NCBI GenBank assembly: GCA_903813345.2
Contig: CAIIXF020000012.1
Location: 21,342,184 to 21,406,183, forward strand
Reading direction: 5' to 3'
Source: Owenia fusiformis
Lineage: Eukaryota > Annelida > Polychaeta > Sabellida > Oweniidae
Length of the DNA: 64,000 nucleotides
Of this stretch, positions 33,397 through 61,444 are shown one piece after another. Position numbers and translations under genes: made by a program. The notes beneath the pieces are model-generated. The model had not been told where the DNA came from. It did no database searches and saw nothing but the letters and a program-made list of their open reading frames with translations. Numbering within the stretch: the stretch's first letter is position 1; every line of letters begins with the position of its first letter.

Positions 33397-33398
33397 TA

Positions 33399-34110: not shown

Positions 34111-35982
34111 ATGTAGTGTATTGTGTAAACCATTTCTAACATGTCATTGTATTTCATGTCCATGGATCATCAAACGGCGCATGCACTGTTTTCATAAGGG
34201 GACACACAACCAATTGATCCTTCTGTATGGAGTGGGCAAATATATGGCATTTTAAAAGCAAGAAAATACATGTATGGTAGTCCATTTATTGTTATTATAC
34301 CAGCATCACAAGTGATTTGATTTTGGTAAGTCCATTTATGAAGAAAGTCAGTATGTATGGGTCAACTCTAACACTTGATTTGATATGATTAAGGTGCAAT
34401 TTCTAGGAAAATGTTTTACCTTTTTGTCCTCACTCCACGGTCAAAATCAGAATGACAAATTTAGACATTTTCTATAGATGGCGTATGCAACATGTGAGAC
34501 ATTTTGATTTTTCGTGGGGAGTTTTGATTCAATCTTTGTTCACTGACAGATGACATACTTGGGTATGATGGTATGATAGTAAAACATATACATGGCCACA
34601 AATCTTACATTAATTTTCTATAAAAGACACATCATTTGAAAGGGAAAATGCATGTTATACATGTATTATTTGGTTGTGTTATCCATCCCTAAGTTTTTTT
34701 AAAAATTACTTTTATATGAATAGATGACGTGTTAGGTTGACAAATAGACTAACTATGGCAAGAGAAGGATGCCCCAGAGCTTTAGAGATGACAGACATAC
34801 ATGTAATTACGTCTCTTACTGGCCATATTCGTTTGTTAGAATTTTCACAAGCAAGTTTACGAAATAATTGTTCAATTCATTGTCATGTTTTAATCGATGT
34901 TAGTAAATTCTTGGAAAACATCTTTATGTAACATAACAAGCCGTGATATTAATTAACATGCCAGATATTAACATGATGTTAATTGAAGATGTTTAGAAAA
35001 TTTTGAAACCACCATTTGTCTGTTGATTTGGCCAATCAGCGACGACGTCGTCTCAAAACAGATTTTATAACCACTTGGAAATCGAAGATGCCATGGGAAA
35101 CAATTTACAATTTTTTCACTTATTATCACGGATTTGATATAGTTAAAAATAGTTAAAAGTGGCTAATAATAAACTGTAATAATATCATATGTTGTTTGTT
35201 GATGGTTTTCAAAGAATAAACCATATCGCTTTATAGTGTTAATTTGTGATCGCCACATATTGTTATATTATCGAAGATTTTGTGGATTTTGTTTGGTGGA
35301 TGGTGCTTGGCAGTTGGTGAGGTGGCATTCCACGGTCAGCGTATGAAACTTGAATGACAGATGGAGTTTAGGGCATAAATTATTTTCACACATTGCTAAT
35401 TGTTTGGTCAATCTATAAGTGTGCTATTGAATAGTTTCCAACAAACTTCAAATTCAGACTCTGAAATAAAGAAATTTGCTAAATCAGCATTTTCTAGCCT
35501 GAGCCATCATCCGTTAGATTAAATTACAATGTAACATGAGGATTTCATGAAACTGATACTAATGAGCAAAATATAATTGATATTACCTGTGCTTTAAATT
35601 TGCCATAGAGTTCTTCTCACCCAAAATATTTCTAGAACTTCTTACAGGGGGTTAAAAATGTTTTAAAGGTTCCACAGATCTGCCAAAAAGATGATCTGTT
35701 CCATCCAAAATCTTAGGGACAATTTTTGTAATGAATTTGCCATGTTATATTTGTCCCTATGTATCAATTTATAATATTTGAACCAAATCCGTCCACTGGT
35801 GTTTAGGTTGTTCTATCGCATTCGGTCAATAGGATCATTTCCATGGCCGATATCATATTTTCCCTCGGAATAAAATTCATATTCTGTCCCTCCCATTACA
35901 TCCAGTGCATTAAAAATTGTTTTAAGCAATATTGTCAAACTTTTTTTAACCAGTTTTAATATTCCATCAAGGATGCTACATC
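34111..35982. other. Intergenic DNA with no recognised gene
   Basis: AT-rich, only short open frames; nothing shared with the repeat families described. Confidence 0.4.
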
Positions 35983-36204
35983 TACAGGGTGTCAAATAAA
36001 TATGTTCCCCTTGATTTCAAGAGTATAGACGTCTGTGCATAAACGTGCCCAACATTGAACTAGTTATCTGAAACTTCTTGCTCCATGGAGCCAAGTTTTA
36101 AGTTGGTAAAGAACAATTCAGACATCATACAGACAAAAAGTTAAACAACATTTTGTCCGATGTCAAAGTTGAGGGGGAAGAACATATTTATTGGACACTC
36201 TGTA
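35983..36204. mobile_element. 222-bp MITE with TACAGRGTGTC ends
   Basis: Left TACAGGGTGTCAAATAAATA and right (inverted) TACAGAGTGTCCAATAAATA extend to about 28 bp of inverted similarity with few mismatches. TA bounds each end. No coding capacity; a mariner-type non-autonomous element. Confidence 0.8.
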
Positions 36205-37390
36205 CATTGTACATGGTATAGGCCAGTGTACATAATTGATAAAAATTGATAACAGAATGGATTTTTGGCATTTTTAAAGTTTTAAGGCTGCTGGTGTTTT
36301 GTTGCAGAACATATTTTAAAAAAATACTTGGATTCCAAGCAAGCGTTGGTATGACTGATTACTCATTTTGTTCTAACATCTGTTCAATTTTTGAAGAAAA
36401 TATAAAAACTTCTAGAGTACACAATAATATAATTGATCATTCATGTCATTTTCAAATACCATCGGATTGTGGGTTCGGCATGTGATTTATTTCTCATTTA
36501 ATTGATTTTAAATAAACACGCTAGATTTAAAATTACTCATTTTATTCATCTATGATTTAAGGAATACATCTACAGTATTATAGTGTCCATTTTGATTCAA
36601 TAATCAATATAGATTTTGCACATATTCATAAATTTTTGCTTTTGTATATTCACATCGAAACATTAAGGAAGAACAGCACAGAAGAAGGCTATAGCATTAA
36701 ATAAAATCTTTAACATAGTAATACACATATGGTTCTACATTTTAATTCCAAAACAAGCATGAATATGATGTAACAAGTCCTATGTATCAAGTCCTATGTA
36801 CCAAGCCACATGGATGATTTATGCTGTCTGCTACAGAGGTCAATGTGTAAGATATATTGACCGGATATATTGATTGGATGTAGCATGTCGAATATTGATA
36901 CAAATTAAATTCTATAGAATTGATAGTCTGCATGCACACGATCATCTTTTTGTCAATTGAACCAGTGCATGGCAAGATCGTATATAATATAGATGCTGCA
37001 GACATGTATCACTTATGTTCTCAAGTCCAAGGTAAGAGGATTGAACCTGAAAATAAAAGGAAAACAATCAGGATTGATTTAACTTTTGAATGCTCCATCT
37101 TTTATGAGTACCAGTATCTACAACTGTTTTTGATCTAATGAGATATTTTCAATTCGTTCTTCTATATGTAAAATGACTTTTGTTTAAATGAACATGAAAT
37201 GCCCCTTGGTGTTTTGGTACTGGATTGTGAAGTTGGTTCTCGATTGATGGGGTGAGGGAGAAGGGATGTTAGACATTATTTATTGTCGCGATAGATCATG
37301 TTTTTACGATTTATAACATGTATAGGGTTAACTTATCCTATAACACCAACATAACTAAAGAAGCAAGCCCAATGTCCTGTTTAAGAACCA
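36205..37390. other. Intergenic DNA with no recognised gene
   Basis: Short open frames only (up to 79 codons). No repeat found; the tandem array starts at 37391. Confidence 0.4.
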
Positions 37391-38388
37391 TAGTTGTACC
37401 TCAATGATACAAGATAAGAAAATGAAAAATACAAGGATACAACTTGGTCGAGTCACTTCCAATACAAGCGGAGGTGGGGATGCCGAGGCATTCCTTTCAT
37501 TGACTCTAGTAAATCTGTCATAGCCTTGCACCCCTCCTGGCTCCAGATTTATATCATCAAGTCAACTAACTGCGTGGGCAGATGTAATTCTGTAGGAAGA
37601 ATGGAATAGTGGAGTATATGTATATTCTTTAAGAATAAATTGAAATGTGGTGTTTCATTTTTCAAAGCAGTTGCCATCTTGACTTGGCCCAATGTGAAGT
37701 AGGAATGATTCAGGCAACTATCACAGACCACATGTGAAAATAATGAAACATGGCTTCATGGTACATTTGTACATTAAGTGAAATCAAGGCAGTCATCATT
37801 TAGTGTATTTCTTAGAAAAATGTTTGCCAAACATACATGTGCCAACAATGGGATTAGAATCCCAACTATTGAAAAATGTGTCATTGTGGAATAACCGTAC
37901 TGAACCAGAGAGCAAAATCATCAAATGATAGAAACGATTATGTGTTACAGTACCTTTAACAAGATGGTATGTAGATATAAATGCTGCAGATTGGTAGCAC
38001 AAATTGTAGATTCTCTGTGGTTTTCCTTTTGTGTTTCTTTTTGTTCTCTCCAAGGCAAGAGGTATGTAGATACAAATGCTGCAGATAGGTAGCACAAATT
38101 GTAGATTCTCTGTGGTTTTCCCTTTGTGGTTCTTTTTATTCTCTCCAAGGCAAGAAGACTGCACCTGAAAGTACATTTAAGGAAAAGATCAGCGATGGTT
38201 CAATTAAAAAGAAAGAAAACCCCGAAACTAAGCCCACAATTTTAACATGAAAACCCAAAAGAAAAGACCCTTCAATCTACAACTGTAGCTAAAATGAACA
38301 CAAGACTTCAGACCTTCAAAATTTAGATCTGGAGTAGTACTTGAAGTGAACTTTAAAATTGAATCATTGCTGAGTAAGTATTGGTCAA

Positions 38389-38458
38389 CGAAATACAATA
38401 CAATACAATACAAAACAATACAAAACTATACAATACAATACAATACAATACAATACTA
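38389..38458. repeat. (AATAC)n microsatellite, unit 1
   Basis: Runs of 'atacaatacaatac' with a few interruptions ('aaaac', 'ctata'). The equivalent tracts in the other units are near 40179-40258, 43452-43525, 46558-46637, 49853-49927, 52944-53018 and 55394-55443; their lengths differ, as expected for slippage. Confidence 0.95.
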
Positions 38459-38479
38459 AGCACTACATCCATGATCTTG

Positions 38480-38712
38480 GTCATCTGGTTCGTTGGTTGT
38501 CTGGTTCATTGGTTGTCTGGTTCGTTGGGTGAAGTGTTGGTTAGATGGTTGATTAATTAGTTAATTGGTTGGTTAGTTTTAACCTATTGGGTGGTCTGGT
38601 GGTTGTCTGGTTGGTTAGTTGGTTGGTTAGTATGTAAGTTGGTTGGTTAGATTAAGCCTATCGGGTCATTGGTTGGTCGGTTGGATGTCCGGTTGGTTGG
38701 TTGGTTGGTTGT
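38480..38712. repeat. GGTT-rich tract, unit 1
   Basis: Degenerate 'ttggttggttag' and 'gtctggttcgttg' repeats. The same tract is present in each array unit (for example 40285-40565 and 46670-46970). The W-, L- and G-rich open frames reported here come from this repeat. Confidence 0.9.
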
Positions 38713-39534
38713 TTGACACCCCCAAGAAAAAATAACTGGAGTGATGACTTCCCAAAAACTTGAATTAAACAACCACATCTACAATCAAAAGATCCCCATT
38801 GCTCCATCAAATCCAACTCAATAAAAAGGTGAGTTGAGACCCCCCCATGAAATTAAACTGAAACGGTATTGGAAGTAGCCCCCCCCCCAACCCACACACT
38901 ATGGAGTCAATACCTTCCCCAAAACTTGAATTAAGCAACCCAAGCTCAAATCTAAAAGACCACCGCTCAAACAAACTAAAAAGTGAAGTGACTTGAAGCC
39001 CCCCCCCACTAAAAGTAGAACTGGAATATTACTGGGAGTAGCCCCCTGCTAATGGGATGCAACTGATTGCAAGAGATAAAACTGGGCAAAAATGCGACAT
39101 CTATGGTAAGTTCTGGAAACTCGACCTAGTCCCCTCGTGAAGAAAAATGTGATTTCAACAGGATCGTCGTTTCGCAGGGACTTCACCATCTGTGCTACAA
39201 ATAGATAAAAACATGTTGTAGTAGTTGTTATTTTACATAAAACTTTGCATTATACTTTACAGTACTTAAATTTACACTACTAAAAATTTACAGAATTTTA
39301 CAAAAAATAAAAAATTTATTTCTCCCAATTTGATATAAACCGGTAGACTTCCATATCTCTGATTTTGAAACATGAACTCTATCCCCCCAGAAACCCAACC
39401 ACCCCCCTCCCACTTTACCTTAGAGTCCAAGTTTCTCCACCAAAGAATATGGGTCGGCCAACAAAAGTCCACCAGTAAATATCAAACTGGGAGGCGCCCC
39501 TATCCCTATGCAAAACCAGGAAGGAATACTTAAC

Positions 39535-39827
39535 TTAGGTAGCAGGAACGTCGGTTGTAGTCCTAGTTGGCATGCAGCTGTTGTCTCCGTTGTGTCGTTG
39601 GTCATCGGGCTCCTCATCTCCAAGCTGAAAGTGAACCTGAAAACAGAGGAACTAAACTGATGTAATAATTGAATAAAAAAAAATGTACTTACGTTGGTGC
39701 TTTGGTGACAGGAACACGAACACATCTCGCCCATGATACTGTTTACGTGGACTGGACCTGATGGCTCAAAGTTGTCGAAAGACTGATCCAGCTGCCACCC
39801 TAACTTAGTGTGTTCGCTGCATCTCTC
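39535..39827 (-). other. Candidate decayed exon pair in array unit 1
   Basis: On the minus strand, 39693-39827 is open for 45 codons (including FDNFEPSGPVHVNS and MGEMCSCSCHQSTN) and ends at GTAAGTAC. Across a 56-bp gap ending TTTTCAG, 39636-39535 continues in the same frame for 33 codons (VHFQLGDEEPDDQRHN, then NGDNSCMPTRTTTDVPAT) to a TAA. An AATAAA on the same strand follows at about 39310. Other units disrupt this: a TAG in units 3-6, an early TAA in unit 7, and a deletion shifting the second frame in type B. The unspliced frame is also open. I recognise no family; this may be a dead gene end or chance. Confidence 0.25.
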
Positions 39828-40589
39828 TCACAGTACCTTTAACAAGATGGCATGTAGATATAAATGCTGCAGATAGGTAGCACAAATTGTAGATTCTCTG
39901 TGGTTTTCCCTTTGTGGTTCTTTCTGTTCTCTCCAAGGCAAGAGGACTGCACCTGAAAGTACATTTAAGGAAAAGGTCAGCGATGGTTCAATTAAAAAGA
40001 AAGAAACCCCGAAACTAAGCCCACAATTTTAACATGAAAACCCAAAAGAAAAGACCCTTCAATCTACAACTGTAGCTAAAATGAACACAAGACTTCAGAC
40101 CTTCAAAATTTAGATCTGGAGTAGTACTTGAAGTCAACTTTAAAATTGAATCATTACTGAGTAAGTACTGGTCAACGAAATACAATACAATACAAAACAA
40201 AACAATACAAAACTATACAATACAATACAATACAATACAATACAATACAATACAATACTAAGCACTAGATCCATGATCTTGGTCATCTGGTTCGTTGCTT
40301 GTCTGGTTCATTGCTTGTCTGGTTCGTTGCTTGTCTGGTTCGTTGGTTGTTTGGTTCGTTGGATGGAGTGTTGATTAGTTTGTTGATTAATTAGTTAGTT
40401 GGTTGGTTAGTTTTAACTTATTGGGTGGTCTGGTGGTTGTCTGGTTGGTTAGTTGGTTGGTTAGTTGGTTGGTTAGTAAGTAAGTTAGTTAATAGATTAA
40501 GCCTATTGGGTCATTGGTTGGTCGGTTGGATGTTCGGTAAGTTGGTTGGTTGGTTGTCTGGTTGTTTGACTTCCCCCCAAGAAAAACTA

Positions 40590-41880
40590 GAATAGTACTG
40601 GGAGCAGCCCCCTGCTTAAGGGATGCCACTGATTGCAAGAGATAAAAACTGGTCAAAAGCGACATCTACAGTAAGTCCTTGAAACTCAACCTAGTCTCCT
40701 AATGGAGACAAATGTGATTTCAACAGGACTGTCTTTCTGCAGGAAAACTGAAAAACTACTGGGAGTTCCCCCCCCCCTGCTAATGGGATGCAACTGATTG
40801 CAAGAGATAATACTGGTCAAAATGCGACATCTACTGTAAGTCCTTGAAACTCAACCTAGTCCCCTAATGGAGACAAATGTGATTTCAACAGGACTGTCTT
40901 TCCGCAGGAAAACTGGAAGAGTACTGGGAGTCCCCCCCCCTGCTAATGGGATGCAATTGATTGAAAGAGATAAAAACTGGTCAGAGCGACATGTACGGTA
41001 GGTCCTTGAAACTCAACCTAGTCCCCTAATGGAGACAAATGTGATTTCAACAGGACTGTCCTTCCGCACGAAAACTGGAATAGTACTGGGAGTTCCCCCC
41101 CCCCTGCTAATGGGATGCAACTGATTGCAAGAGATGAAAACTGGTCAAAAGCGACATCTACGGTAAGTCCTTGAAACTCAACCTAGTCCCCTAATGGAGA
41201 CAAATGTGATTTCAACAGGACTGTCTTTCCGCAGGAAAACTGGAAGAGTACTGGGAGTCCCCCCCCCTGCTAATGGGATGCAATTGATTGCAAGAGATAA
41301 AAACTGGTCAGAGCGACATGTACGGTAGGTCCTTGAAACTCAACCTAGTCCCCTAATGGAGACAAATGTGATTTCAACAGGACCGTCCTTCCGCACGAAA
41401 ACTGGAATAGTACTGGGAGTTCCCCCCCCCTGCTAATGGGATGCAACTGATTGCAAGAGATGAAAACTGGTCAAAAGCGACATCTACGGTAAGTCCTTGA
41501 AACTCAACCTAGTCCCCTAATGAAGACAAATGTGATTTCAACAGGACTGTCTTTCCGCAGGAAAACTGGAAGAGTACTGGGAGTCCCCCCCCTGCTAATG
41601 GGATGCAATTGATTGCAAGAGATAAAAACTGGTCAGAGCGACATGTACGGTAGGTCCTTGAAACTCAACCTAGTCCCCTAATGGAGACAAATGTGATTTC
41701 AACAGGACTGTCATTCCGCAGGAAAACTGGAATAGTACTGGGAGTTCCCTCCCCCCCTTCTAATGGGATGCAACTGATTGCAAGAGATAAAACTGGTCAA
41801 AATGCGACATCTACTGTAAGTCCTGGAAACTTGACCTAGTCCCCTCGTGGAAAAAATGTGATTCCAACAGGACCGTCTTT
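40590..41880. repeat. 162-bp minisatellite in unit 2, two-unit higher-order repeat
   Basis: 'tactgggag' occurs at 40596, 40758, 40922, 41083, 41249, 41411, 41575 and 41736, giving a period of 161-166 bp. Two versions alternate: one has GAAGAG, CAATTGATTG and CATGTACGGTAGGT; the other has GAATAG, CAACTGATTG and CATCTACGGTAAGT. Every unit has 'ctttccgcag' or a close variant before GAAAACTGG, and a GTRRGT after ACG. The C-tract in each copy varies from about 5 to 10. Equivalent arrays are at about 43850-44985, 46985-48285 and 50240-51375. Confidence 0.93.
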
Positions 41881-41968
41881 TCGCAGGGACTTCACCATCT
41901 GTGCTACAAATAGATAAAACATGTTGTAGTAGTTGTTATTTTACATAAAACTTTACATGAAAACTTTA

Positions 41969-42041
41969 AATAAAACTTTACACTATACTTTACACTACAC
42001 TACTAAAAATTTACAGAATATTACAAAAGATAAAATTTATT
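41969..42041. promoter_or_regulatory. Possible convergent polyadenylation signals (unit 2; repeated in other B units)
   Basis: AATAAA on the plus strand at 41969-41974 and AATAAA on the minus strand at 42036-42041 face each other about 60 bp apart, just beyond the last splice-like motif of the minisatellite (plus) and beyond the candidate exons (minus). Both are in AT-rich DNA where AATAAA is common by chance. Confidence 0.25.
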
Positions 42042-42535
42042 TCTCCCAATTTGATATAAACCAGTAGACTTCCATATTTTTGATTTTGAAACATGAACTC
42101 TATCCCCCCGGAAACCCAACCACCCCCCTCCCACTTTACCTTAGAGTCCAAGTTTCTCCAGCAAAAATATGGGTCGGCCAACAAAAGTCCACAAGTAAAT
42201 ATCAAACTGGGAGGCGCCCCCATCCCTATGCAAAACCAGGAAGGAATACTTAACTTAGGTAGCAGGAACGCAGGAACGCAGCTGTTGTCTCGGTTGTGTC
42301 GTTGGTCATCGGGCTCCTCATCTCCAAGCTGAAAGGGAACCTGAAAACAGAGGAACTAACCTGTTGTAATAATTGAATAGAAAAAAAATGTACTTACTTT
42401 GGTGCTTTGGTGACAGGAACACGAACACCTCTCGCCCATGATACTGTTTACGTGGACCGGACCTGATGGCTCAAAGTTGTCGAAAGACTGATCCAGCTAT
42501 CGCCCTAACTTGGTGTGTTTGCTGCATCTCTCTCA

Positions 42536-45500
42536 TAGTTGTACCTGAAAGATACAAGATAAGAAAATGAAAAATACAAGGATGCAACTTGGTCGAGTCA
42601 CTTCCAATACAAGCGGAGGAGGGAATGCAAAGACATTCCTTTCATTGACTCTAGTAAATCTGTCATAGCCTTATACCCCTCCTGGCTCAAGATGTATATC
42701 ATCAAGTCAACTTACTGCTTAGGCAGATGTAACTCTGTAGGAAGAATGGAATAGTTGAGCATATGTATATTCTTTAAGAACACAGACCACATGTGAAAAT
42801 AATGAAACATGGCTTCATGGTACATCTGTACATTAAGTGAAATCAAGGCAGTCCTCTTTTAGTGTATTTCTAAGAAAAAATGTTTGCCAAACATACATGT
42901 GCCAACAATGGGATTAGAATCCCAACAATTGAAAAATGTGTCGTTGTGAAATAACTGTACTGAACCAGAGAGCAAAATCATCAAATGGTAGAACTGATTA
43001 TGTGTTACAGTACCTTTAACAAGATGGTATGTAGATATAAATGCTGCAGATAGGTAGCACAAATTGCACATTCTCTGTGGTTTTCCTTTTGTGTTTCTTT
43101 TTGTTCTCTCCAAGGCAAGAGGTATGTAGATCACAAATGCTGCAGGTAGGTAGCACAAATTGTAGATTCTCTGTGGTTTTCCCTTTGTGGTTCTTTCTGT
43201 TCTCTCCAAGGCAAGAGGACTGCACCTGAAAGTACATTTAAGGAAAAGATCAGCGATGGTTCAATTAAAAAGAAAGAAACCCCGAAACTAAGCCCACGAT
43301 TTTAATATGAAAACCCAAAAGAAAAGACCCTTCAATCTACAACTGTAGCTAAAATGAACACAAGACTTCAGACCTTCAAAATTTAGATCTGGAGTAGTAC
43401 TTGAAGTCAACTTTAAAATTGAATCATTACTGAGTAAGTACTGGTCAACGAAATACAATACAATACAAAACAAAACAATACAAAACTATACAATACAATA
43501 CAATACAATACAATACAATACAATACTAAGCACTAGATCCATGATCTTGGTCATCTGGTTCGTTGCTTGTCTGGTTCGTTGCTTGTCTGGTTCGTTGCTT
43601 GTCTGGTTCGTTGGTTGTTTGGTTCGTTGGATGGAGTGTTGATTAGTTTGTTGATTAATTAGTTAGTTGGTTGGTTAGTTTTAACCTATTGGGTGGTCTG
43701 GTGGTTGTCTGGTTGGTTAGTTGGTTGGTTAGTAAGTAAGTTAGTTAATAGATTAAGCCTATTGGGTCATTGGTTGGTCGGTTGGATGTTCGGTAAGTTG
43801 GTTGGTTGGTTGTCTGGTTGGTTGTCTGGTTGTTTGACTTCCCCCCAAGAAAAACTAGAATAGTACTGGGAGCAGCCCCCTGCTAATGGGATGCAACTGA
43901 TTGCAAAAGATAAAAACTGGTCAAAAGCGACATCTACAGTAAGTCCTTGAAACTCAACCTAGTCTCCTAATGGAGACAAATGTGATTTCAACAGGACTGT
44001 CTTTCTGCAGAAAAACTGAAAAACTACTGGGAGTTCCCCCCCCCTGCTAATGGGATGCAACTGATTGCAAGAGATAATACTGGTCAAAATGCGACATCTA
44101 CTGTAAGTCCTTGAAACTCAACCTAGTCCCCTAATGGAGACAAATGTGATTTCAACAGGACTGTCTTTCCGCAGGAAAACTGGAAGAGTACTGGGAGTCC
44201 CCCCCCTGCTAATGGGATGCAACTGATTGCAAGAGATGAAAACTGGTCAAAAGCGACATCTACGGTAAGTCCTTGAAACTCAACCTAGTCCCCTAATGGA
44301 GACAAATGTGATTTCAACAGGACTATCTTTCCGCAGGAAAACTGGAAGAGTACTGGGAGTCCCCTCCCCCCTGCTAATGGGATGCAATTGATTGCAAGAG
44401 ATAAAAACTGGTCAGAGCGACATGTACGGTAGGTCCTTGAAACTCAACCTAGTCCCCTAATGGAGACAAATGTGATTTCAACAGGACCGTCCTTCCGCAC
44501 GAAAACTGGAATAGTACTGGGAGTTCCCCCCCCCTGCTAATGGGATGCAACTGATTGCAAGAGATGAAAACTGGTCAAAAGCGACATCTACGGTAAGTCC
44601 TTGAAACTCAACCTAGTCCCCTAATGGAGACAAATGTGATTTCAACAGGACTGTCTTTCCGCAGGAAAACTGGAAGAGTACTGGGAGTCCCCCCCCCCCT
44701 GCTAATAGGATGCAATTGATTGCAAGAGATAAAAACTGGTCAGAGCGACATGTACGGTAGGTCCTTGAAACTCAACCTAGTCCCCTAATGGAGACAAATG
44801 TGATTTCAACAGGACTGTCATTCCGCAGGAAAACTAGAATAGTACTGGGAGTTCCCCCCCCCTTCTAATGGGATGCAACTGATTGCAAGAGATAAAACTG
44901 GTCAAAATGCGACATCTACTGTAAGTCCTGGAAACTTGACCTAGTCCCCTCGTGGAAAAAATGTGATTCCAACAGGACCGTCTTTTCGCAGGGACTTCAC
45001 CATCTGTGCTACAAATAGATAAAACATGTTGTAGTAGTTGTTATTTTACATAAAACTTTACATAAAAACTTTAAATAAAACTTTACACTATACTTTACAC
45101 TACACTACTAAAAATTTACAGAATATTACAAAAGATGAAATTTATTTCTCCCAATTTGATATAAACCAGTAGACTTCCATATTTTTGATTTTGAAACATG
45201 AACTCTATCCCCCCGGAAACCCAACCACCCCCCTCCCATTTTACCTTAGAGTCCAAGTTTCTCCACCAAAAATATGGGTCGGCCAACAAAAGTCCACAAG
45301 TAAATATCAAACTGGGAGGCGCCCCCCATCCCTATGCAAAACCAGAAAGGAATACTTAACTTAGGTAGCAGGAACGCAGGAACGCAGCTGTTGTCTCGGT
45401 TGTGTCGTTGGTCATCGGGCTCCTCATCTCCAAGCTGAAAGGGAACCTGAAAACAGAGGAACTAACCTGTTGTAATAATTGAATAGAAAAAAAATGTACT

Positions 45501-45641
45501 TACTTTGGTGCTTTGGTGACAGGAACACGAACACCTCTCGCCCATGATACTGTTTACGTGGACCGGACCTGATGGCTCAAAGTTGTCGAAAGACTGATCC
45601 AGCTATCGCCCTAACTTGGTGTGTTTGCTGCATCTCTCTCA
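42536..45641. repeat. Array unit 3 (type B)
   Basis: Leader with the 95-bp deletion ('ctttaagaacacagacc'), doubled 'ctctgtggttttcc' block, AATAC tract, GGTT tract, about seven 162-bp motifs (43850-44985). Confidence 0.93.
43850..44985. repeat. 162-bp minisatellite in unit 3
   Basis: About seven copies of the motif described at 40590-41880, with the same alternation in most of the array; one place has two consecutive copies of similar type, which accounts for part of the length difference from unit 4. Confidence 0.9.
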
Positions 45642-48600
45642 TAGTTGTACCTGAAAGATACAAGATAAGAAAATGAAAAATACAAGGATGCAACTTGGTC
45701 GAGTCACTTCCAATACAAGCGGAGGAGGGAATGCAAAGACATTCCTTTCATTGACTCTAGTAAATCTGTCATAGCCTTATACCCCTCCTGGCTCAAGATT
45801 TATATCATCAAGTCAACTAACTGCTTGGGCAGATGTAACTCTGTAGGAAGAATGGAATAGTTGAGCATATGTATATTCTTTAAGAACACAGACCACATGT
45901 GAAAATAATGAAACATGGCTTCATGGTACATCTGTACATTAAGTGAAATAAAGGCAGTCCTCTTTTAGTGTATTTCTAAGAAAAAATGTTTGCCAAACAT
46001 ACATGTGCCAACAAAGGGATTAGAATCCCAACAATTGAAAAATGTGTCGTTGTGGAATAACTGTACTGAACCAGAGAGCAAAATCATCAAATGATAGAAC
46101 TGATTATGTGTTACAGTACCTTTAACAAGATGGTATGTAGATATATATGCTGCAGATAGGTAGCACAAATTGCACATTCTCTGTGGTTTTCCTTTTGTGT
46201 TTCTTTTTGTTCTCTCCAAGGCAAGAGGTATGTAGATCACAAATGCTGCAGGTAGGTAGCACAAATTGTAGATTCTCTGTGGTTTTCCCTTTGTGGTTCT
46301 TTCTGTTCTCTCCAAGGCAAGAGGACTGCACCTGAAAGTACATTTAAGGAAAAGGTCAGCGATGGTTCAATTAAAAAGAAAGAAACCCCGAAACTAAGCC
46401 CACAATTTTAACATGAAAACCCAAAAGAAAAGACCCTTCAATCTACAACTGTAGCTAAAATGAACACAAGACTTCAGACCTTCAAAATTTAGATCTGGAG
46501 TAGTACTTGAAGTCAACTTTAAAATTGAATCATTACTGAGTAAGTACTGGTCAACGAAATACAATACAATACAAAACAAAACAATACAAAACTATACAAT
46601 ACAATACAATATAATACAATACAATACAATACAATACTAAGCACTAGATCCATGATCTTGGTCATCTGGTTCGTTGCTTGTCTGGTTCATTGCTTGTCTG
46701 GTTCGTTGCTTGTCTGGTTCGTTGGTTGTTTGGTTCGTTGGATGGAGTGTTGATTAGTTTGTTGATTAATTAGTTAGTTGGTTGGTTAGTTTTAACCTAT
46801 TGGGTGGTCTGGTGGTTGTCTGGTTGGTTAGTTGGTTGGTTAGTTGGTTGGTTAGTAAGTAAGTTAGTTAATAGATTAAGCCTATTGGGTCATTGGTTGG
46901 TCGGTTGGATGTTCGGTAAGTTGGTTGGTTGGATGTCTGGTTGGTTGTCTGGTTGGTTGTCTGGTTGTTTGACTTCCCCCCAAGAAAAACTAGAATAGTA
47001 CTGGGAGCAGCCCCCTGCTAATGGGATGCAACTGATTGCAAAAGATAAAAACTGGTCAAAAGCGACATCTACAGTAAGTCCTTGAAACTCAACCTAGTCT
47101 CCTAATGGAGACAAATGTGATTTCAACAGGACTGTCTTTCTGCAGAAAAACTGAAAAACTACTGGGAGTTCCCCCCCTGCTAATGGGATGCAACTGATTG
47201 CAAGAGATAATACTGGTCAAAATGCGACATCTACTGTAAGTCCTTGAAACTCAACCTAGTCCCCTAATGGAGACAAATGTGATTTCAACAGGACTGTCTT
47301 TCCGCAGGAAAACTGGAAGAGTACTGGGAGTCCCCCCCCTGCTAATGGGATGCAATTGATTGCAAGAGATAAAAACTGGTCAGAGCGACATGTACGGTAG
47401 GTCCTTGAAACTCAACCTAGTCCCCTAATGGAGACAAATGTGATTTCAACAGGACCGTCCTTCCGCACGAAAACTGGAATAGTACTGGGAGTTCCCCCCC
47501 CCCTGCTAATGGGATGCAACTGATTGCAAGAGATGAAAACTGGTCAAAAGCGACATCTACGGTAAGTCCTTGAAACTCAACCTAGTCCCCTAATGGAGAC
47601 AAATGTGATTTCAACAGGACTATCTTTCCGCAGGAAAACTGGAAGAGTACTGGGAGTCCCCCCCCTGCTAATGGGATGCAATTGATTGCAAGAGATAAAA
47701 ACTGGTCAGAGCGACATGTACGGTAGGTCCTTGAAACTCAACCCAGTCCCCTAATGGAGACAAATGTGATTTCAACAGGACCGTCCTTCCGCACGAAAAC
47801 TGGAATAGTACTGGGAGTTCCCCCCCCCCTGCTAATGGGATGCAACTGATTGCAAGAGATGAAAACTGGTCAAAAGCGACATCTACGGTAAGTCCTTGAA
47901 ACTCAACCTAGTCCCCTAATGGAGACAAATGTGATTTCAACAGGACTGTCTTTCCGCAGGAAAACTGGAAGAGTACTGGGAGTCCCCCCCCCTGCTAATG
48001 GGATGCAATTGATTGCAAGAGATAAAAACTGGTCAGAGCGACATGTACGGTAGGTCCTTGAAACTCAACCTAGTCCCCTAATGGAGACAAATGTGATTTC
48101 AACAGGACTGTCATTCCGCAGGAAAACTGGAATAGTACTGGGAGTTCCCCCCCCCCCTTCTAATGGGATGCAACTGATTGCAAGAGATAAAACTGGTCAA
48201 AATGCGACATCTACTGTAAGTCCTGGAAACTTGACCTAGTCCCCTCGTGGAAAAAATGTGATTCCAACAGGACCGTCTTTTCGCAGGGACTTCACCATCT
48301 GTGCTACAAATAGATAAAACATGTTGTAGTAGTTGTTATTTTACATAAAACTTTACATAAAAACTTTAAATAAAACTTTACACTATACTTTACACTACAC
48401 TACTAAAAATTTACAGAATATTACAAAAGATAAAATTTATTTCTCCCAATTTGATATAAACCAGTAGACTTCCATATTTTTGATTTTGAAACATGAACTC
48501 TATCCCCCCGGAAACCCAACCACCCCCCTCCCATTTTACCTTAGAGTCCAAGTTTCTCCACCAAAAATATGGGTCGGCCAACAAAAGTCCACAAGTAAAT

Positions 48601-48936
48601 ATCAAACTGGGAGGCGCCCCCCATCCCTATGCAAAACCAGAAAGGAATACTTAACTTAGGTAGCAGGAACGCAGGAACGCAGCTGTTGTCTCGGTTGTGT
48701 CGTTGGTCATCGGGCTCCTCATCTCCAAGCTGAAAGGGAACCTGAAAACAGAGGAACTAACCTGTTGTAATAATTGAATAGAAAAAAAATGTACTTACTT
48801 TGGTGCTTTGGTGACAGGAACACGAACACCTCTCGCCCATGATACTGTTTACGTGGACCGGACCTGATGGCTCAAAGTTGTCGAAAGACTGATCCAGCTA
48901 TCGCCCTAACTTGGTGTGTTTGCTGCATCTCTCTCA
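45642..48936. repeat. Array unit 4 (type B)
   Basis: Same plan as unit 3 with about eight 162-bp motifs (46985-48285), which accounts for most of its extra length. Confidence 0.93.
46985..48285. repeat. 162-bp minisatellite in unit 4
   Basis: About eight copies with the same alternation of the GTAGGT and GTAAGT versions. Confidence 0.9.
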
Positions 48937-51900
48937 TAGTTGTACCTGAAAGATACAAGATAAGAAAATGAAAAATACAAGGATGCAACTTGGTCGAGTC
49001 ACTTCCAATACAAGCGGAGGAGGGAATGCAAAGACATTCCTTTCATTGACTCTAGTAAATCTGTCATAGCCTTATACCCCTCCTGGCTCAAGATTTATAT
49101 CATCAAGTCAACTAACTGCTTGGGCAGATGTAACTCTGTAGGAAGAATGGAATAGTTGAGCATATGTATATTCTTTAAGAACACAGACCACATGTGAAAA
49201 TAATGAAACATGGCTTCATGGTACATCTGTACATTAAGTGAAATCAAGGCAGTCCTCTTTTAGTGTATTTCTAAGAAAAAATGTTTGCCAAACATACATG
49301 TGCCAACAATGGGATTAGAATCCCAACAATTGAAAAATGTGTCGTTGTGGAATAACTGTACTGAACCAGAGAGCAAAATCATCAAATGATAGAACTGATT
49401 ATGTGTTACAGTACCTTTAACAAGATGGTATGTAGATATAAATGCTGCAGATAGGTAGCACAAATTGCACATTCTCTGTGGTTTTCCTTTTGTGTTTCTT
49501 TTTGTTCTCTCCAAGGCAAGAGGTATGTAGATCACAAATGCTGCAGGTAGGTAGCACAGATTGTAGATTCTCTGTGGTTTTCCCTTTGTGGTTCTTTCTG
49601 TTCTCTCCAAGGCAAGAGGACTGCACCTGAAAGTACATTTAAGGAAAAGGTCAGCGATGGTTCAATTAAAAAGAAAGAAACCCCGAAACTAAGCCCACAA
49701 TTTTAACATGAAAACCCAAAAGAAAAGACCCTTCAATCTACAACTGTAGCTAAAATGAACACAAGACTTCAGACCTTCAAAATTTAGATCTGGAGTAGTA
49801 CTTGAAGTCAACTTTAAAATTGAATCATTACTGAGTAAGTACTGGTCAACGAAATACAATACAATACAAAACAAAACAATACAAAACTATACAATACAAT
49901 ACAATACAATACAATACAATACAATACTAAGCACTAGATCCATGATCTTGGTCATCTGGTTCGTTGCTTGTCTGGTTCATTGCTTGTCTGGTTCGTTGCT
50001 TGTCTGGTTCGTTGGTTGTTTGGTTCGTTGGATGGAGTGTTGATTAGTTTGTTGATTAATTAGTTAGTTGGTTGGTTAGTTTTAACCTATTGGGTGGTCT
50101 GGTGGTTGTCTGGTTGGTTAGTTGGTTGGTTAGTAAGTAAGTTAGTTAATAGATTAAGCCTATTGGGTCATTGGTTGGTCGGTTGGATGTTCGGTAAGTT
50201 GGTTGGTTGGTTGTCTGGTTGTTTGACTTCCCCCCAAGAAAAACTAGAATAGTACTGGGAGCAGGCCCCTGCTTAAGTGATGCAACTGATTGCAAGAGAT
50301 AAAAACTGGTCAAAAGCGACATCTACAGTAAGTCCTTGAAACTCAACCTAGTCTCCTAATGGAGACAAATGTGATTTCAACAGGACTGTCTTTCTGCAGG
50401 AAAACTGAAAAACTACTGGGAGTTCCAACCCCCCCCCTGCTAATGGGATGCAACTGATTGCAAGAGATAATACTGGTCAAAATGCGACATCTACTGTAAG
50501 TCCTTGAAACTCAACCTAGTCCCCTAATGGAGACAAATGTGATTTCAACAGGACTGTCTTTCCGCAGGAAAACTGGAAGAGTACTGGGAGCCCCCCCCCT
50601 GCTAATGGGATGCAATTGATTGAAAGAGATAAAAACTGGTCAGAGCGACATGTACGGTAGGTCCTTGAAACTCAACCTAGTCCCCCAATGGAGACAAATG
50701 TGATTTCAACAGGACCGTCCTTCCGCACGAAAACTGGAATAGTACTGGGAGTTCCCCCCCCCTGCTAATGGGATGCAATTGATTGCAAGAGATAAAAACT
50801 GGTCAGAGCGACATGTACGGTAGGTCCTTGAAACTCAACCTAGTCCCCTAATGGAGACAAATGTGATTTCAACAGGACCGTCCTTCCGCACGAAAACTGG
50901 AAGAGTACTGGGAGTTCCCCCTCCTGCTAATGGGATGCAACTGATTGCAAGAGATGAAAACTGGTCAAAAGCGACATCTACGGTAAGTCCTTGAAACTCA
51001 ACCTAGTCCCCTAATGGAGACAAATGTGATTTCAACAGGACTGTCTTTCCGCAGGAAAACTGGAAGAGTACTGGGAGTCCCCCCCCTGCTAATGGGATGC
51101 AATTGATTGCAAGAGATAAAAACTGGTCAGAGCGACATGTACGGTAGGTCCTTGAAACTCAACCTAGTCCCCTAATGGAGACAAATGTGATTTCAACAGG
51201 ACTGTCATTCCGCAGGAAAACTGGAATAGTACTGGGAGTCCCCCCCCCCTTCTAATGGGATGCAACTGATTGCAAGAGATAAAACTGGTCAAAATGCGAC
51301 ATCTACTGTAAGTCCTGGAAACTTGACCTAGTCCCCTCGTGGAAAAAATGTGATTCCAACAGGACCGTCTTTTTGCAGGGACTTCACCATCTGTGCTACA
51401 AATAGATAAAACATGTTGTAGTAGTTGTTATTTTACATAAAACTTTACATGAAAACTTTAAATAAAACTTTACACTATACTTTACACTACACTACTAAAA
51501 ATTTACAGAATATTACAAAAGATAAAATTTATTTCTCCCAATTTGATATAAACCAGTAGACTTCCATATTTTTGATTTTGAAACATGAACTCTATCCCCC
51601 CGGAAACCCAACCACCCCCCTCCCACTTTACCTTAGAGTCCAAGTTTCTCCAGCAAAAATATGGGTCGGCCAACAAAAGTCCACAAGTAAATATCAAACT
51701 GGGAGGCGCCCCCATCCCTATGCAAAACCAGGAAGGAATACTTAACTTAGGTAGCAGGAACGCAGGAACGCAGCTGTTGTCTCGGTTGTGTCGTTGGTCA
51801 TCGGGCTCCTCATCTCCAAGCTGAAAGGGAACCTGAAAACAGAGGAACTAACCTGTTGTAATAATTGAATAGAAAAAAAATGTACTTACTTTGGTGCTTT

Positions 51901-52027
51901 GGTGACAGGAACACGAACACCTCTCGCCCATGATACTGTTTACGTGGACCGGACCTGATGGCTCAAAGTTGTCGAAAGACTGATCCAGCTATCGCCCTAA
52001 CTTGGTGTGTTTGCTGCATCTCTCTCA
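48937..52027. repeat. Array unit 5 (type B)
   Basis: Same plan as unit 3 with about seven 162-bp motifs (50240-51375). Confidence 0.93.
50240..51375. repeat. 162-bp minisatellite in unit 5
   Basis: About seven copies; here two GTAGGT-type copies are adjacent (near 50640-50830), breaking the strict alternation, as expected from unequal exchange out of register. Confidence 0.9.
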
Positions 52028-54391
52028 TAGTTGTACCTGAAAGATACAAGATAAGAAAATGAAAAATACAAGGATGCAACTTGGTCGAGTCACTTCCAAT
52101 ACAAGCGGAGGAGGGAATGCAAAGACATTCCTTTCATTGACTCTAGTAAATCTGTCATAGCCTTATACCCCTCCTGGCTCAAGATTTATATCATCAAGTC
52201 AACTTACTGCTTAGGCAGCTGTAACTCTGTAGGAAGAATGGAATAGTTGAGCATATGTATATTCTTTAAGAACACAGACCACATGTGAAAATAATGAAAC
52301 ATGGCTTCATGGTACATCTGTACATTAAGTGAAATCAAGGCAGTCCTCTTTTAGTGTATTTCTAAGAAAAAATGTTTGCCAAACATACATGTGCCAACAA
52401 TGGGATTAGAATCCCAACAATTGAAAAATGTGTCGTTGTGAAATAACTGTACTGAACCAGAGAGCAAAATCATCAAATGATAGAACTGATTATGTCTTAC
52501 AGTACCTTTGACAAGATGGTATGTAGATATAAATGCTGCAGATAGGTAGCACAAATTGCACATTCTCTGTGGTTTTCCTTTTGTGTTTCTTTTTGTTCTC
52601 TCCAAGGCAAGAGGTATGTAGATCACAAATGCTGCAGGTAGGTAGCACAAATTGTAGATTCTCTGTGGTTTTCCCTTTGTGGTTCTTTCTGTTCTCTCCA
52701 AGGCAAGAGGACTGCACCTGAAAGTACATTTAAGGAAAAGATCAGCGATGGTTCAATTAAAAAGAAAGAAACCCCGAAACTAAGCCCACGATTTTAACAT
52801 GAAAACCCAAAAGAAAAGACCCTTCAATCTACAACTGTAGCTAAAATGAACACAAGACTTCAGACCTTCAAAATTTAGATCTGGAGTAGTACTTGAAGTC
52901 AACTTTAAAATTGAATCATTACTGAGTAAGTACTGGTCAACGAAATACAATACAATACAAAACAAAACAATACAAAACTATACAATACAACACAATACAA
53001 TACAATACAATACAATACTAAGCACTAGATCCATGATCTTGGTCATCTGGTTCTTGGTTGTCTGGTTCGTTGGTTGTTTGGTTCGTTGGGTGGAGTGTTG
53101 GTTAGATGGTTGATTAATTAGTTAATTGGTTGGTTAGTTTTAACCTATTGGGTTGTCTGGTGGTTGTCTAGTTGGTTAGTTGGTTGGTTAGTATGTAAGT
53201 TGGTTGGTTAGATTAAGCCTATCGGGTCATTGTTTGGTCGGTTGGATGTCCGGTTGGTTGGTTGTCTGGTTGTTTGACACCCCCAAGAAAAAAAAACTGG
53301 AGTGATGACTTCCCAAAAACTTGAATTAAACAACCACATCTACAATCAAAAGATCCCCATTGCTCCATCAAATCCAACTCAATAAAAAGGTGACTTGAGA
53401 CCCCCCCCATGAAATTAAACTGAAACGATACTGGAAGTAGCCCCCCCCCAACACACACACTTTGGAGTGAATACCTTCCCAAAAACTTGAATTAAGCAAC
53501 CCAAGCTCAAATCTAAAAGATCAGCGCTCAAACAAACTAAAAAGTGAAGTGACTTGAGGCCTCCCCCACTAAAAGTAGAACTGGAATAGTACTGGGAGTA
53601 GCCCCCTGCTAATGGGATGCAACTGATTGCAAGAGATAAAACTGGGCAAAAATGCGACATCAATGGTAAGTTCTGGAAACTCGACCTAGTCCCCTCGTGA
53701 AGAAAAATGTGATTTCAACAGGATCGTTGTTTCGCAGGGACTTCACCATCTGTGCTACAAATAGATAAAAACATGTTGTAGTAGTTGTTATTTTAAATAA
53801 AACTTAAAATAAAACTTTGCATTATACTTAACAGTACTTAAATTTACACTACTAAAAATTTACAGAATATTACAAAAGTTAAAATTTATTTCTCCCAATT
53901 TGATATACACCGGTAGACTTCCATATCTCTGATATTGAAACATGAACTCTATCCCCCCAGAAACCCAACCACCCCCTCCCACTTTACCTTAGAGTCCAAG
54001 TTTCTCCACCAAAGATATGGGTCGGCCAACAAAAGTCCACCAGTAAATATCAAACTGGGAGGCGCCCCTATCCCTATGCAAAACCAGGAAGGAATACTTA
54101 ACTTAGGTAGCAGGAACGTCGGTTGTAGTCCTAGTTGGCACGCAGCTGTTGTCTCCATTGTGTCGTTGGTCATCGGGCTCCTCATCTCCAAGCTGAAAGT
54201 GAACCTGAAAACAGAGGAACTAAACTGATGTAATAATTGAATAAAAGAAATGTACTTACTTTGGTGCTTTAGTGACAGGAACACCTCTCGCCCATGATAC
54301 TGTTTACGTGGACTGGACCTGATGGCTCAAAGTTGTCGAAAGACTGATCCAGCTGTCGCCCTAACTTCGTGTGTTCGCTGCATCTCTCTCA
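52028..54391. repeat. Array unit 6 (B-to-A chimera)
   Basis: The first kilobase is type B (95-bp leader deletion present), but from about 53040 ('ggagtgttggttagatgg') it is type A, with 'gacacccccaagaaaaa' and a single 162-bp motif. The switch lies in the GGTT tract. Confidence 0.9.
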
Positions 54392-56789
54392 TAGTTGTAC
54401 CTGAAAGATACAAGATAAGAAAATGAAAAATACAAGGATGCAACTTGGTCGAGTCACTTCCAATACAAGCGGAGGAGGGAATGCCAAGACATTCCTTTCA
54501 TTGACTCTCGTAAATTTGTCATAGCCTTGTACCCTTCCCGCTCAAGATTTATATCATCAAGTCAACTAACTGCTTGGGCAGATGTAACTCTGTAGGAAGA
54601 ATGGAATAGAGGAGTATATGTATATTTTTTAAGACTAAATTGAAATGTGGTGTTTCATATTTCAAAGCAGTTGCCATCTTGACTTGGCCCAATGTGAAGT
54701 AGGAAAGATTCAGGCAACTATCACAGACCACATGTGAAAATAATGAAACATGGCTTCATGGTACATTTGTACATTAAGTGAAATCAAGGCAGTCATCATT
54801 TAGTGTATTTCTTAGAAAAATGTTTGCCAAACATACATGTGCCAACAATGGGATTAGAATCCCAACTATTGAAAAATGTGTCATTGTGGAATAACCGTAC
54901 TGAACCAGAGAGCAAAATCATCAAATGATAGAACTGATTATGTGTTACAGTACCTTTAACAAGATGGTATGTAGATATAAATGCTGCAGATAGGTAGCAC
55001 AAATTGTAGATTCTCTGTGGTTTTACTTTTGTGTTTCTTTTTGTTCTCTCCAAGGCAAGAGGTATGTAGATACAAATGCTGCAGACAGGTAGCACAAATT
55101 GTAGATTCTCTGTGGTTTTCCCTTTGTGGTTCTTTTTATTCTCTCCAAGGCAAGAAGACTGCACCTGAAAGTACATTTAAAGGAAAAGATCAGCGATGGT
55201 TCAATTAAAAAGAAAGAAAACCCCGAAACTAAGCCCACAATTTTAACATGAAAACCCAAAAGAAAAGACCCTTCAATCTACAACTGTAGCTAAAATGAAC
55301 ACAAGACTTCAGACCTTCAAAATTTAGATCTGGAGTAGTACTTGCAGTGAACTTTAAAATTGAATCATTGCTGAGTAAGTATTGGTCAACGAAATACAAT
55401 ACAATACAAAACAATACAAAAATATACAATACAATACAATACTAAGCACTAGATCCATGATCTTGGTCATCTGGTTCGTTGGTTGTCTGGTTCGTTGGTT
55501 GTTTGGTTCGTTGGGTGGAGTGTTGGTTAGATGGTTGATTAATTAGTTAATTGGTTGGTTAGTTTTAACCTATTGGGTGGTCTGGTGGTTGTCTGGTTGG
55601 TTAGTTGGTTGGTTAGTATGTAAGTTGGTTGGTTAGATTAAGCCTATCGGGTCATTGGTTGGTCGGTTGGATGTCCGGTTGGTTGGTTGTCTGGTTGTTT
55701 GACACCCCCAAGAAAAAATAACTGGAGTGAACCACATCTACAATCACAAGATCCCCATTGCTCCATCAAATCCAACTCAATAAAAAGGTGACGTGAGACC
55801 CCCCCATGAAATTAAACTGAAACGATACTGGAAGTAGCCCCCCCCCAACACACACACTTTGGAGTGAATACCTTCCCAAAAACTTGAATTAAGCAACCCA
55901 AGCTCAAATCTAAAAGATCAGCGCTCAAACAAACTAAAAAGTGAAGCGACTTGAGGCCTCCCCCACTAAAAGTAGAACTGGAATAGTACTGGGAGTAGCC
56001 CCCTGCTAATGGGATGCAACTGATTGCAAGAGATAAAACTGGGCAAAAATGCGACATCTATGGTAAGTTCTGGAAACTCGACCTAGTCCCCTCGTGAAGA
56101 AAAATGTGATTTCAACAGGATCGTTGTTTCGCAGGGACTTCACCATCTGTGCTACAAATAGATAAAAACATGTTGTAGTAGTTGTTATTTTACATAAAAC
56201 TTAAAATAAAACTTTGCATTATACTTTACAGTACTTAAATTTACACTACTAAAAATTTACAGAATATTACAAAAGTTAAAATTTATTTCTCCCAATTTGA
56301 TATAAACCGGTAGACTTCCATATCTCTGATTTTGAAACATGAACTCTATCCCCCCAGAAACCCAACCACCCCCTCCCACTTTACCTCAGAGTCCAAGTTT
56401 CTCCACCAAAGATATGGGTCGGCCAACAAAAGTCCACCAGTAAATATCTAAACTGGAAGGCGCCCCTATCCCTATGCAAAACCAGGAAGGAATACTTAAC
56501 TTAGGTAGCAGGAACGTCGGTTGTAGTCCTAGTTGGCACCCAGCTGTTGTCTCCATTGTGTCGTTGGTCATCGGGCTCCTCATCTCCAAGCTGAAAGTGA
56601 ACCTGAAAACAGAGGAACTAAACTGATGTAATAATTGAATAAAAAAAATGTACTTACTTTGGTGCTTTAGTGACAGAAACACCTCTCGCCCATGATACTG
56701 TTTACGTGGACTGGACCTGATGGCTCAAAGTTGTCGAAAGACTGATCCAGCTGTCGCCCTAACTTAGTGTGTTCGCTGCATCTCTCTCA
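54392..56789. repeat. Array unit 7 (type A)
   Basis: Leader with the 95-bp segment, short AATAC tract (55394-55443), a small deletion near 55731 ('ggagtgaaccacatc') and one 162-bp motif. Confidence 0.9.
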
Positions 56790-57097
56790 TAGTTGTACCT
56801 GAAAGATACAAGATAAGAAAATGAAAAATACAAGGATGCAACTTGGTCGAGTCACTTCCAATACAAGCGGAGGAGGGAATGCCAAGACATTCCTTTCATT
56901 GACTCTCGTAAATTTGTCATAGCCTTGTACCCCTCCCGGCTCAAGATTTATATCATCAAGTCAACTAACTGCTTGGGCAGATGTAACTCTGTAGGAAGAA
57001 TGGAATAGTGGAGTATATGTATAAAAAGGTGACTTGAGACCCCCCCCCCATGAAATTAAACTGAAACGATACTGGAAGTAGCCCCCCCCCCAACACT
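56790..57097. repeat. Array unit 8 (truncated, internally deleted)
   Basis: The leader runs to 'gagtatatgtat' (57023), then jumps to 'aaaaaggtgacttgagac', which in unit 7 lies about 1.2 kb later, and stops at a C-run near 57097. This marks the right edge of the array. Confidence 0.85.
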
Positions 57098-57749
57098 AGT
57101 ATGTATCCAACAGACTGACTAGAAGTCAGTCTGTTATGATGTACTACTTTCCTGTGGAAATTGCAGTGAAATTTTTTGCACAAAATTATCAATTAGAGGA
57201 ACCATTTATTCAATAAAATAAACATAACAAAATGTCAATTAAATAGTAAGGTACAACTAAATGCAATAAAAAGCAACACAGCATATTGTCAAGTGGAAAT
57301 AAAGCTAGTTGAAGTAACAAATGTGCAAATTAATTTTACCCAATCAGCCATTTTGAATAGCACTTCCTATGTAAACAAATACTTTTAATTGCCAAACTTT
57401 AACATAGGTGCCTTATAGTCTGAATATAATTCAGACTAAATAGGATATAGTCTACCCCCAACACACACACTAATCTAATACCCATACAAATTAAGGCTAT
57501 TCTTTCAAAACAACATTTTTGCCCATGCTATTTTCTAGAACAAAATAAAGTATGAAGACATGTGTGTATGTCCTTGCTTTTTTTCAAGAAAGTTTCATGA
57601 CATCGTCTCCTCTAAGTAAACCTAGTAAGTGGACAATGGAAATCCAGTTTCATTGAGAGACTTGGAAAATTGAAAATGTGGCCATTTTGATTGATTTTTC
57701 TTAGATTTCAGCATTTCATGGAGTTGCCAATTACCTGCTAGAAAAAAAA
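57098..57749. other. Single-copy spacer with no recognised gene
   Basis: Includes a short inverted repeat ('acagactgactag' and 'agtcagtctgtt' near 57110-57135) next to the array edge. Otherwise AT-rich with no open frame of note. Confidence 0.45.
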
Positions 57750-58136
57750 GTCCATTTCACTGCTTCAGTGCGTCAGTAGAACGGCAAAAATAAGAAATTC
57801 GGAGACTATTGTGCAATAATATATGGAAAAGTATATTCATAATGTACATGAATGACATTTGTATATTTCAGATTTTTTAGTTTTTTGTGCAATAAGCCTG
57901 TGCCGTCTTGTAATTTGAAGAATTTCAGCCATGTTAATCTTATTGAAAATAACATGGCAGAGAAGCATCCAAATATAAGAGGCCACACACTTTATAAGCC
58001 AAACTAGAAGCAATCCAAGATATACAAATGTCATTCATGTACATTATGAATATACTTTTCCATATATTATTGCACAATAGTCTCCGAATTTCTTATTTTT
58101 GCCGTTCTACTGACGCACTGAAGCAGTGAAATGGAC
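57750..58136. repeat. Perfect 117-bp inverted repeat with 153-bp spacer
   Basis: The left arm (57750-57866) and right arm (58020-58136) are exact reverse complements over all 117 positions when compared base by base; the match stops abruptly on both sides. No target-site duplication or known terminus is visible: the flanks are an A-run on the left and 'tctacttgg' on the right. Open frames in the arms and spacer show no domain. Confidence 0.95.
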
Positions 58137-58760
58137 TCTACTTGGTTTACTAAAAAATACATTGCAAGGATACTTTTTTAGTTTGTGCTTTTACCTATTC
58201 CTTAGTTTTCTTCGTCCGGTGGATCGGAGCAAATGTGACCCAGGCATTATAGTTTATAACTTTTGTTTAGTCCCATACTGGTACTTTTCCCTCATACTTT
58301 GTGTTTCCACTTCTTACAATGTTGCTATGGTTGTTCACTTAGGAAATCATCCAGATCGAGCATATGCTGGCATAATAATCCGGGCTCTGCGTATTCATTT
58401 TGTCTACAACAACGGCAAATAACAGCAATTTTTATGATATACTGTGTTATTTTCGTGTTTCCGTATCGGCATTTTTCAACTTCTTATTTGTATAATGAAT
58501 GCTCATAGGGATCTAACCACGTGATCATACGTAAGGTGGTCTGTTGAGATTGACCAATGAACACCGTCGAGAAATTGCTGTAAGCTAATCGAATGCTAGT
58601 ACACAAGAGTTTTAAGCGTCTGGTGTCAGTTCCGAATCTTATTTCCCAAATGGTTTCTTAATCACGTTCGAATTTCACGACGCTAGACAGTAAATGCATG
58701 CTAGTGTGAATATTGCGTTCTATTTATACAACGTTTCAATCGCATAAACATGAACATTAA
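58137..58760. other. Spacer with a 98-codon open frame of unknown meaning
   Basis: The plus-strand frame at 58126-58422 begins inside the right arm of the inverted repeat and has a hydrophobic N-terminal third, but no recognised domain. A CACGTG E-box (about 58518) and a CCAAT (about 58552) lie downstream. I do not call a gene. Confidence 0.35.
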
Positions 58761-58769
58761 AATAGCATG

Positions 58770-60600: not shown

Positions 60601-60609
60601 TCGCGAGCA

Positions 60610-61440: not shown

Positions 61441-61444
61441 CAGG

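Follow-up and report, generated by a model that had tools for sequence, protein, structure and literature searches.

A 64-kb stretch of Owenia fusiformis DNA (the window) carries a real and well-preserved tandem array of the macrosatellite type, recently re-amplified at its centre and, as such, an ordinary example of repeat growth. We consider it probable that this is a small array of a noncoding unit, for whose growth we propose duplication followed by unequal exchange.

Layout of the array

Comparison of the window with itself revealed kilobase-long direct matches of approximately 88-97% identity spanning positions 37389-57096, the longest of which pairs 39843-46939 with 46222-53276 (97.2% over 7129 columns). 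This bears out the original prediction of a tandem array of repeated units. Outside its own limits, the array had no match anywhere in the window (E<=1e-3, low-complexity filter on). Unit limits were derived from the self-matches and an alignment, and define the following head-to-tail succession:

37389-39834, U1, 2446 bp: complete unit of type A; a diverged spacer precedes its one well-matched subrepeat of 163 bp
39835-42533, U2, 2699 bp: start deleted; left edge of the B tract; 8 subrepeats
40583-41887, subrepeat block of U2, 8 copies
42534-45639, U3, 3106 bp: type B; 7 subrepeats
43851-44992, subrepeat block of U3
45640-48934, U4, 3295 bp: type B; 8 subrepeats
46986-48287, subrepeat block of U4
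48935-52025, U5, 3091 bp: type B; 7 subrepeats
50240-51379, subrepeat block of U5
52026-54389, U6, 2364 bp: holds the right edge of the B tract, changing from B (up to 52933) to A (53057 onwards)
54390-56787, U7, 2398 bp: type A, complete
56788-57096, end fragment: 236 bp from the start of a unit, fused to A-type spacer of about 73 bp

Seven complete units and a fragment had been predicted. The head-to-tail order stands and so does the presence of a fragment, but complete units number six, U2 lacking its first 0.58-0.67 kb (relative to B and A units) together with one of two 96-bp repeats. Nor is the fragment a simple truncation, as its unit start is joined to spacer sequence; three bases at the join can be assigned to either side. 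Complete units measure 2364-3295 bp, the kilobase head-to-tail organization of a macrosatellite. The 15-base end of the unit tail is present seven times in the array and is followed by the same 20 bases in six instances; the seventh tail end runs into the deleted start of U2. A unit proceeds from a start of about 247 bp through a middle portion of about 1 kb and the subrepeat region to a tail of about 650 bp. The middle comprises the 96-bp duplication (single in U2), an (AATAC)n run, a 16-bp repeat and TTGG-rich sequence. U1 and U7 have an extra 86 bp after the unit start.

A and B units and their subrepeats

The two unit types differ mainly by a multiplied 161-168-bp subrepeat, which makes up the extra length of the B type (approximately 3.1-3.3 kb, compared with 2.4 kb for the A type). 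To locate the borders between types, we used the 178 diagnostic sites at which U1 and U7 agree with each other and differ from a base shared by U3, U4 and U5; 107 of these fall in the unreliably aligned subrepeat block and were excluded, leaving 71. Of these 71 sites, 58 are present in U2, the first being of A type (39873) and the following 57 of B type (from 39924). U6 shows 20 B sites (to 52933), then 50 A sites (from 53057), plus a single site with a third base. Thus, there is one switch in U2 and one in U6 at the sites kept outside the subrepeat block, and B sequence therefore runs uninterrupted for about 13 kb (about 39.9-53.0 kb), with type A on either side of it in the array. The assignment of outer units to A (U1 and U7) and inner units to B (U3 to U5) was correctly anticipated. 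The two units previously described as chimeric, U2 and U6, are indeed mixed, but they are best described as the two edges of a single B tract.

Divergence in the unique tail followed the order B-B < A-A < A-B, with 1-6 differences per 648-649 bp among U2 to U5, 10-16 per 641-653 bp among U1, U6 and U7, and 35-40 per 632-636 bp between types. This ranking indicates that the B type was amplified more recently than the A/B split. Together with the continuity of the tract and its one edge on each side, it supports the earlier proposal that a B variant was amplified inside an older A array. Between types, divergence is approximately 2-8% depending on the segment. The first 236 bp of the unit depart from the simple picture: there, U1 differs from U7 at 16 positions and from the B units at 15-18, so that the A type is not uniformly nearer to itself.

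The subrepeat region holds 7-8 copies of 161-168 bp in U2 to U5 and one well-matched copy behind a spacer in U1, U6 and U7. Clustering of 33 copies at a 5% cut placed the first, the second and the last subrepeats each in a position-specific cluster in all four B-type blocks. The inner subrepeats alternate between two further clusters, with one immediate cluster repeat in U5, and are thus mostly ordered as a dimer of about 327 bp. Higher-order organization is therefore present in that copies at the same position are more alike, which applies to the first, second and last copies, the inner ones merely alternating. Tandem Repeats Finder reported periods of 162-165 and 324-327 bp, and of 487-490 bp in three of the four blocks. 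Successive stretches of the A spacer match each other at 73% (124/170), and the spacer aligned to the subrepeat with a local score of 35, the maximum in 300 mononucleotide shuffles being 31. This score is weak evidence for an origin of the A spacer from the subrepeat.

The motif GTAAGT occurs on the plus strand in 22 of the 33 subrepeat copies (40671, 40836 and homologues); the array as a whole has 44 of these motifs on its plus strand, compared with 9 on its minus strand. A search of the plus strand for paired short introns found none.

CpG content, gene content and surroundings

Observed/expected ratios for CpG ranged from 0.28 to 0.42 in all nine 2-kb bins inside the array and from 0.56 to 1.27 in 21 bins outside, two bins straddling the edges (0.41 and 0.40) being in neither count. 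With C/G runs collapsed, the ratio was 0.42 in U7 and 0.43 in U3, compared with 0.82 in 30 kb on the left and 0.90 on the right. The poor stretch passes the array on both sides, to about 33.25 and 57.75 kb:

33251-57750, CpG-poor stretch around and including the array (750-bp bins; array interior measured at 2 kb)

One 750-bp bin in its left part, 34751-35500, is not CpG-poor; four bins of this size between 28.7 and 34.0 kb, outside the array, have ratios of 0.33-0.41, which tempers the contrast. Since GpC is also low in the array, the CpG deficit is partly compositional. Transitions were more frequent at CpG than at other C/G sites in each of four A-A and A-B pairs (0.116 vs 0.023, 0.149 vs 0.067, 0.173 vs 0.066 and 0.063 vs 0.032), which share sequences and rest on small counts (4-13 transitions). 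The same four pairs showed no consistent transition excess at GpC, and three repeat pairs outside the array no consistent excess at CpG (0.056 vs 0.076, 0.083 vs 0.173 and 0.259 vs 0.219). Among B units, U3 and U5 differ by 3 transitions at 60 CpG positions, U2 and U4 by none at 50. The pattern suggests that the array may be CpG-methylated in the germline, which would be its simplest reading. In the oyster, as one source puts it, gene bodies are enriched in CpG methylation while repeats, tandem repeats included, have about twice the background level (PMC4378273).

Searches of the six frames of U7 and the three minus frames of U3 yielded no Pfam family above the curated cut-off. Below it, the PT repeat was listed in the TTGG-rich stretch (best E 2.9e-4), on three minus frames for U7 and a single one for U3, alongside Orf78 (best 0.0093), MATalpha_HMGbox, Consortin_C and DUF6548. 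The separate Pfam search that recognized a LIM exon also listed DREV, Adeno_E1A (0.0065) and Zn_ribbon_FGT1_1, likewise below cut-off. The window contains no Rfam match at the gathering score and no tRNA gene, which rules out an array of rRNA, tRNA or small-RNA genes. Outside the subrepeat block, indels of a multiple of three bases account for 2 of 21 between U7 and U3, 0 of 9 between U6 and U7 and 4 of 11 between U1 and U7. A coding gene is rejected on frame-breaking indels, stop codons and the lack of a Pfam family in the frames searched, and the units show no conserved open reading frame such as a tandem gene family would have. The earlier statement that no known gene or transposon is recognizable in the unit holds against Pfam and Rfam within the frames searched. 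That first account mentioned neither the subrepeat that mainly sets B apart, with its dimeric order, nor the CpG depletion, nor the intron-like segment described next.

The alternative that survives best, albeit as an unlikely one, is that the unit arose by duplication of part of a transcribed gene, so that the array would be a tandem gene family or a segment of repeated exons in a transcription unit. Most likely, the minus strand would then carry either a decayed gene or a noncoding RNA subject to splicing. The evidence centres on an intron-like segment, located in U1 as follows:

39637-39692, minus strand, intron-like segment GTAAGTA...TTTTCAG of U1, 56 bp

A segment of this kind (GTAAGTA...CTCTGTTTTCAG, 55-57 bp) is found on the minus strand once in each of the seven units, and the short-intron pattern is absent from both strands of the 44.3 kb of flanks. 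In six of the seven, the segment is preceded at a distance of 141 or 147 bp by an acceptor-like site, within the start of the next unit; the unit without it is U1, whose neighbour U2 has no unit start. However, when both strands are counted, a segment of this kind arose in 60 of 1000 dinucleotide shuffles of U7 (in 38 when only the minus strand is counted), and the seven occurrences amount to one observation by descent. Joining the candidate exons produced stops in all three frames in the four unit pairs matched, and most indels between A and B disregard the frame. The CpG-poor DNA does resemble the transcribed, methylated gene bodies described for several invertebrates in one source (PMC4378273), and the poor stretch ends abruptly on the right near 57.75 kb. 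Against a transcribed gene, the flanks at 28001-37600 and 57000-64000 gave no Pfam match on either strand, and positions 30001-37400 no PDB match on the minus strand.

The one protein domain recognized in the surroundings lies to the left of the array:

9494-9772, minus strand, LIM-domain exon (Pfam LIM, E 1.7e-15)

Its best matches are to the first LIM domain of Lhx4 and Lhx3 (E 6e-25 to 3e-24). Judged from these matches, which also mark the window as animal DNA, the exon belongs to a LIM-homeodomain gene of the Lhx3/4 type, with a plausible starting methionine. No second LIM exon was found on the minus strand of 1-9900. No other Pfam family rose above cut-off in the stretches searched, which comprised the window except the plus strand of 1-10000, both strands of 19901-28000 and most of the array. 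A more specific and still less probable version of the transcribed-gene reading would make the array the CpG-methylated body of a minus-strand noncoding gene about 28 kb upstream of this exon, with a multiplied exon-intron block. Each unit would then contribute a subrepeat block as well as two noncoding exons joined by splicing.

Several further repeats were noted in the window:

14541-14822, 69-bp repeat, 4.1 copies, 99% matches, with one plus frame open
22399-24125, 70-bp tandem repeat, 24.6 copies, 95% matches
57749-58137, self-complementary element 0.65 kb beyond the right end of the array (inverted match of 85% in 393 columns)
58776-59848, tandem repeat of 90 bp in 12 copies (81% matches), a short way beyond the right end of the array in the CpG-rich stretch

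The 70-bp repeat begins at most 2 bases from the end of a dispersed element (...AAACTTATGGAGGGGAGTGTA or close variants). This end recurs near 187, 17486 (minus strand), 26107, 27775 (minus strand), 31868 and 62241, and a truncated inverted copy of it was seen by eye after the 70-bp repeat.

That the array unit is itself a non-autonomous transposable element, or part of one, with internal tandem repeats and multiplied in place, appears very unlikely. A transposon-like element does adjoin a tandem repeat elsewhere in the window, namely the 70-bp repeat at 22399-24125; however, outside the array the 64 kb contain neither a further copy of the unit nor a fragment of it. The array ends at different unit phases, leaving no constant element end. 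Terminal inverted repeats of a DNA transposon or MITE were not found at the unit ends in the U7 region, the sole inverted repeat in 54390-57150 being 14 nt long at 86% and away from those ends. A transposon with defined termini is thus not supported.

Equally improbable is that all or part of the array is an artefact of assembly, produced by wrongly chained haplotypes or repeats: the aligned bases of complete B units show 98.7-99.5% identity, a range prone to assembly error, but all can be told apart (16 mismatches and 203 gap columns for U3-U4, 21 and 216 for U4-U5, 41 and 23 for U3-U5), the types diverge as given above and the borders of the B tract are orderly. The number of units in the assembly could nevertheless be wrong.

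Growth of the array and related repeat systems

We return to the reading of a small macrosatellite-type array of a noncoding unit. A segment would have been duplicated in tandem, an initial event that we infer rather than see. The subrepeat would then have increased in number within one unit lineage, through unequal exchange or slippage. Exchange between misaligned units could have multiplied this B lineage centrally, so that older A units persist at either end and mixed units mark the two borders. With somewhat less support, the array may live on as a passively evolving repeat with no coded product.

On two nested scales, those of the units and of the subrepeats, copies in the centre resemble one another and copies at the edges have diverged. 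Unequal exchange leaves the copies at the edges of an array to diverge, and this two-scale pattern is what it would be expected to produce. Unequal exchange accounts for the unit level and the subrepeat level, for the single borders, for the varying number of subrepeats and for the deleted units near the edges. When the blocks of the B tract are taken in tail-start-middle phase, they show an X-Y-Y-X relatedness, with 7/1478 and 4/1479 differences within types and 12-17 between. An exchange involving several units could lie behind this order; since the numbers are small, the succession of exchanges is only suggested. Unequal exchange of misaligned copies is presented as a standard account of satellite growth and homogenization in two sources (PMC8122249, PMC3694981).

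Among known systems, the human macrosatellites DXZ4 (3 kb) and D4Z4 (3.3 kb) resemble the array in having kilobase units arranged head to tail at one place. Macrosatellites generally occupy one or two chromosomal sites and differ in copy number among individuals; within the window, the array unit was found at this one site. As described for DXZ4, internal short tandem repeats cause much of the variation between units, as they do here; DXZ4 is credited with 12-100 units in the same account (PMC3081327), compared with seven in the array, few for a macrosatellite. DXZ4 is called CpG-rich in one source (PMC8122249), whereas the array is CpG-poor. The units of D4Z4 and RS447 are described as holding an ORF (PMC3018141), in contrast to the array unit, which has no conserved one. 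The human 3.5-kb LTR array, with its shifted higher-order units, likewise has kilobase units and shows higher-order deletions ascribed to unequal crossing over (PMC2588610), similar to the situation here. Its unit is built from retrotransposon LTRs, whereas none were recognized in the array unit, for which no repeat library was compared. Two CTCF-like patterns gave no site in the array, which speaks against a DXZ4-type insulator; in the whole window only the first pattern was matched, twice, on the minus strand at 32957 and 3809.

The higher-order repeat organization of the alpha-satellite type (PMC3694981) offers a further comparison. The mostly dimeric order of the inner 161-168-bp subrepeats is comparable to it; however, the subrepeat block of the array is short (7-8 copies) and lies inside a larger complex unit with its own sequence. 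A multi-copy centre with diverged edges is a further feature that the array shares with such repeats.

If the methylation reading is true, the repeat would apparently be methylated more than most of the surrounding window. Beyond its growth and possible methylation the array is ordinary. It nonetheless displays repeat growth at two nested scales within 20 kb, with both borders of the younger tract preserved, and thus provides a compact case for the dating and modelling of array growth.
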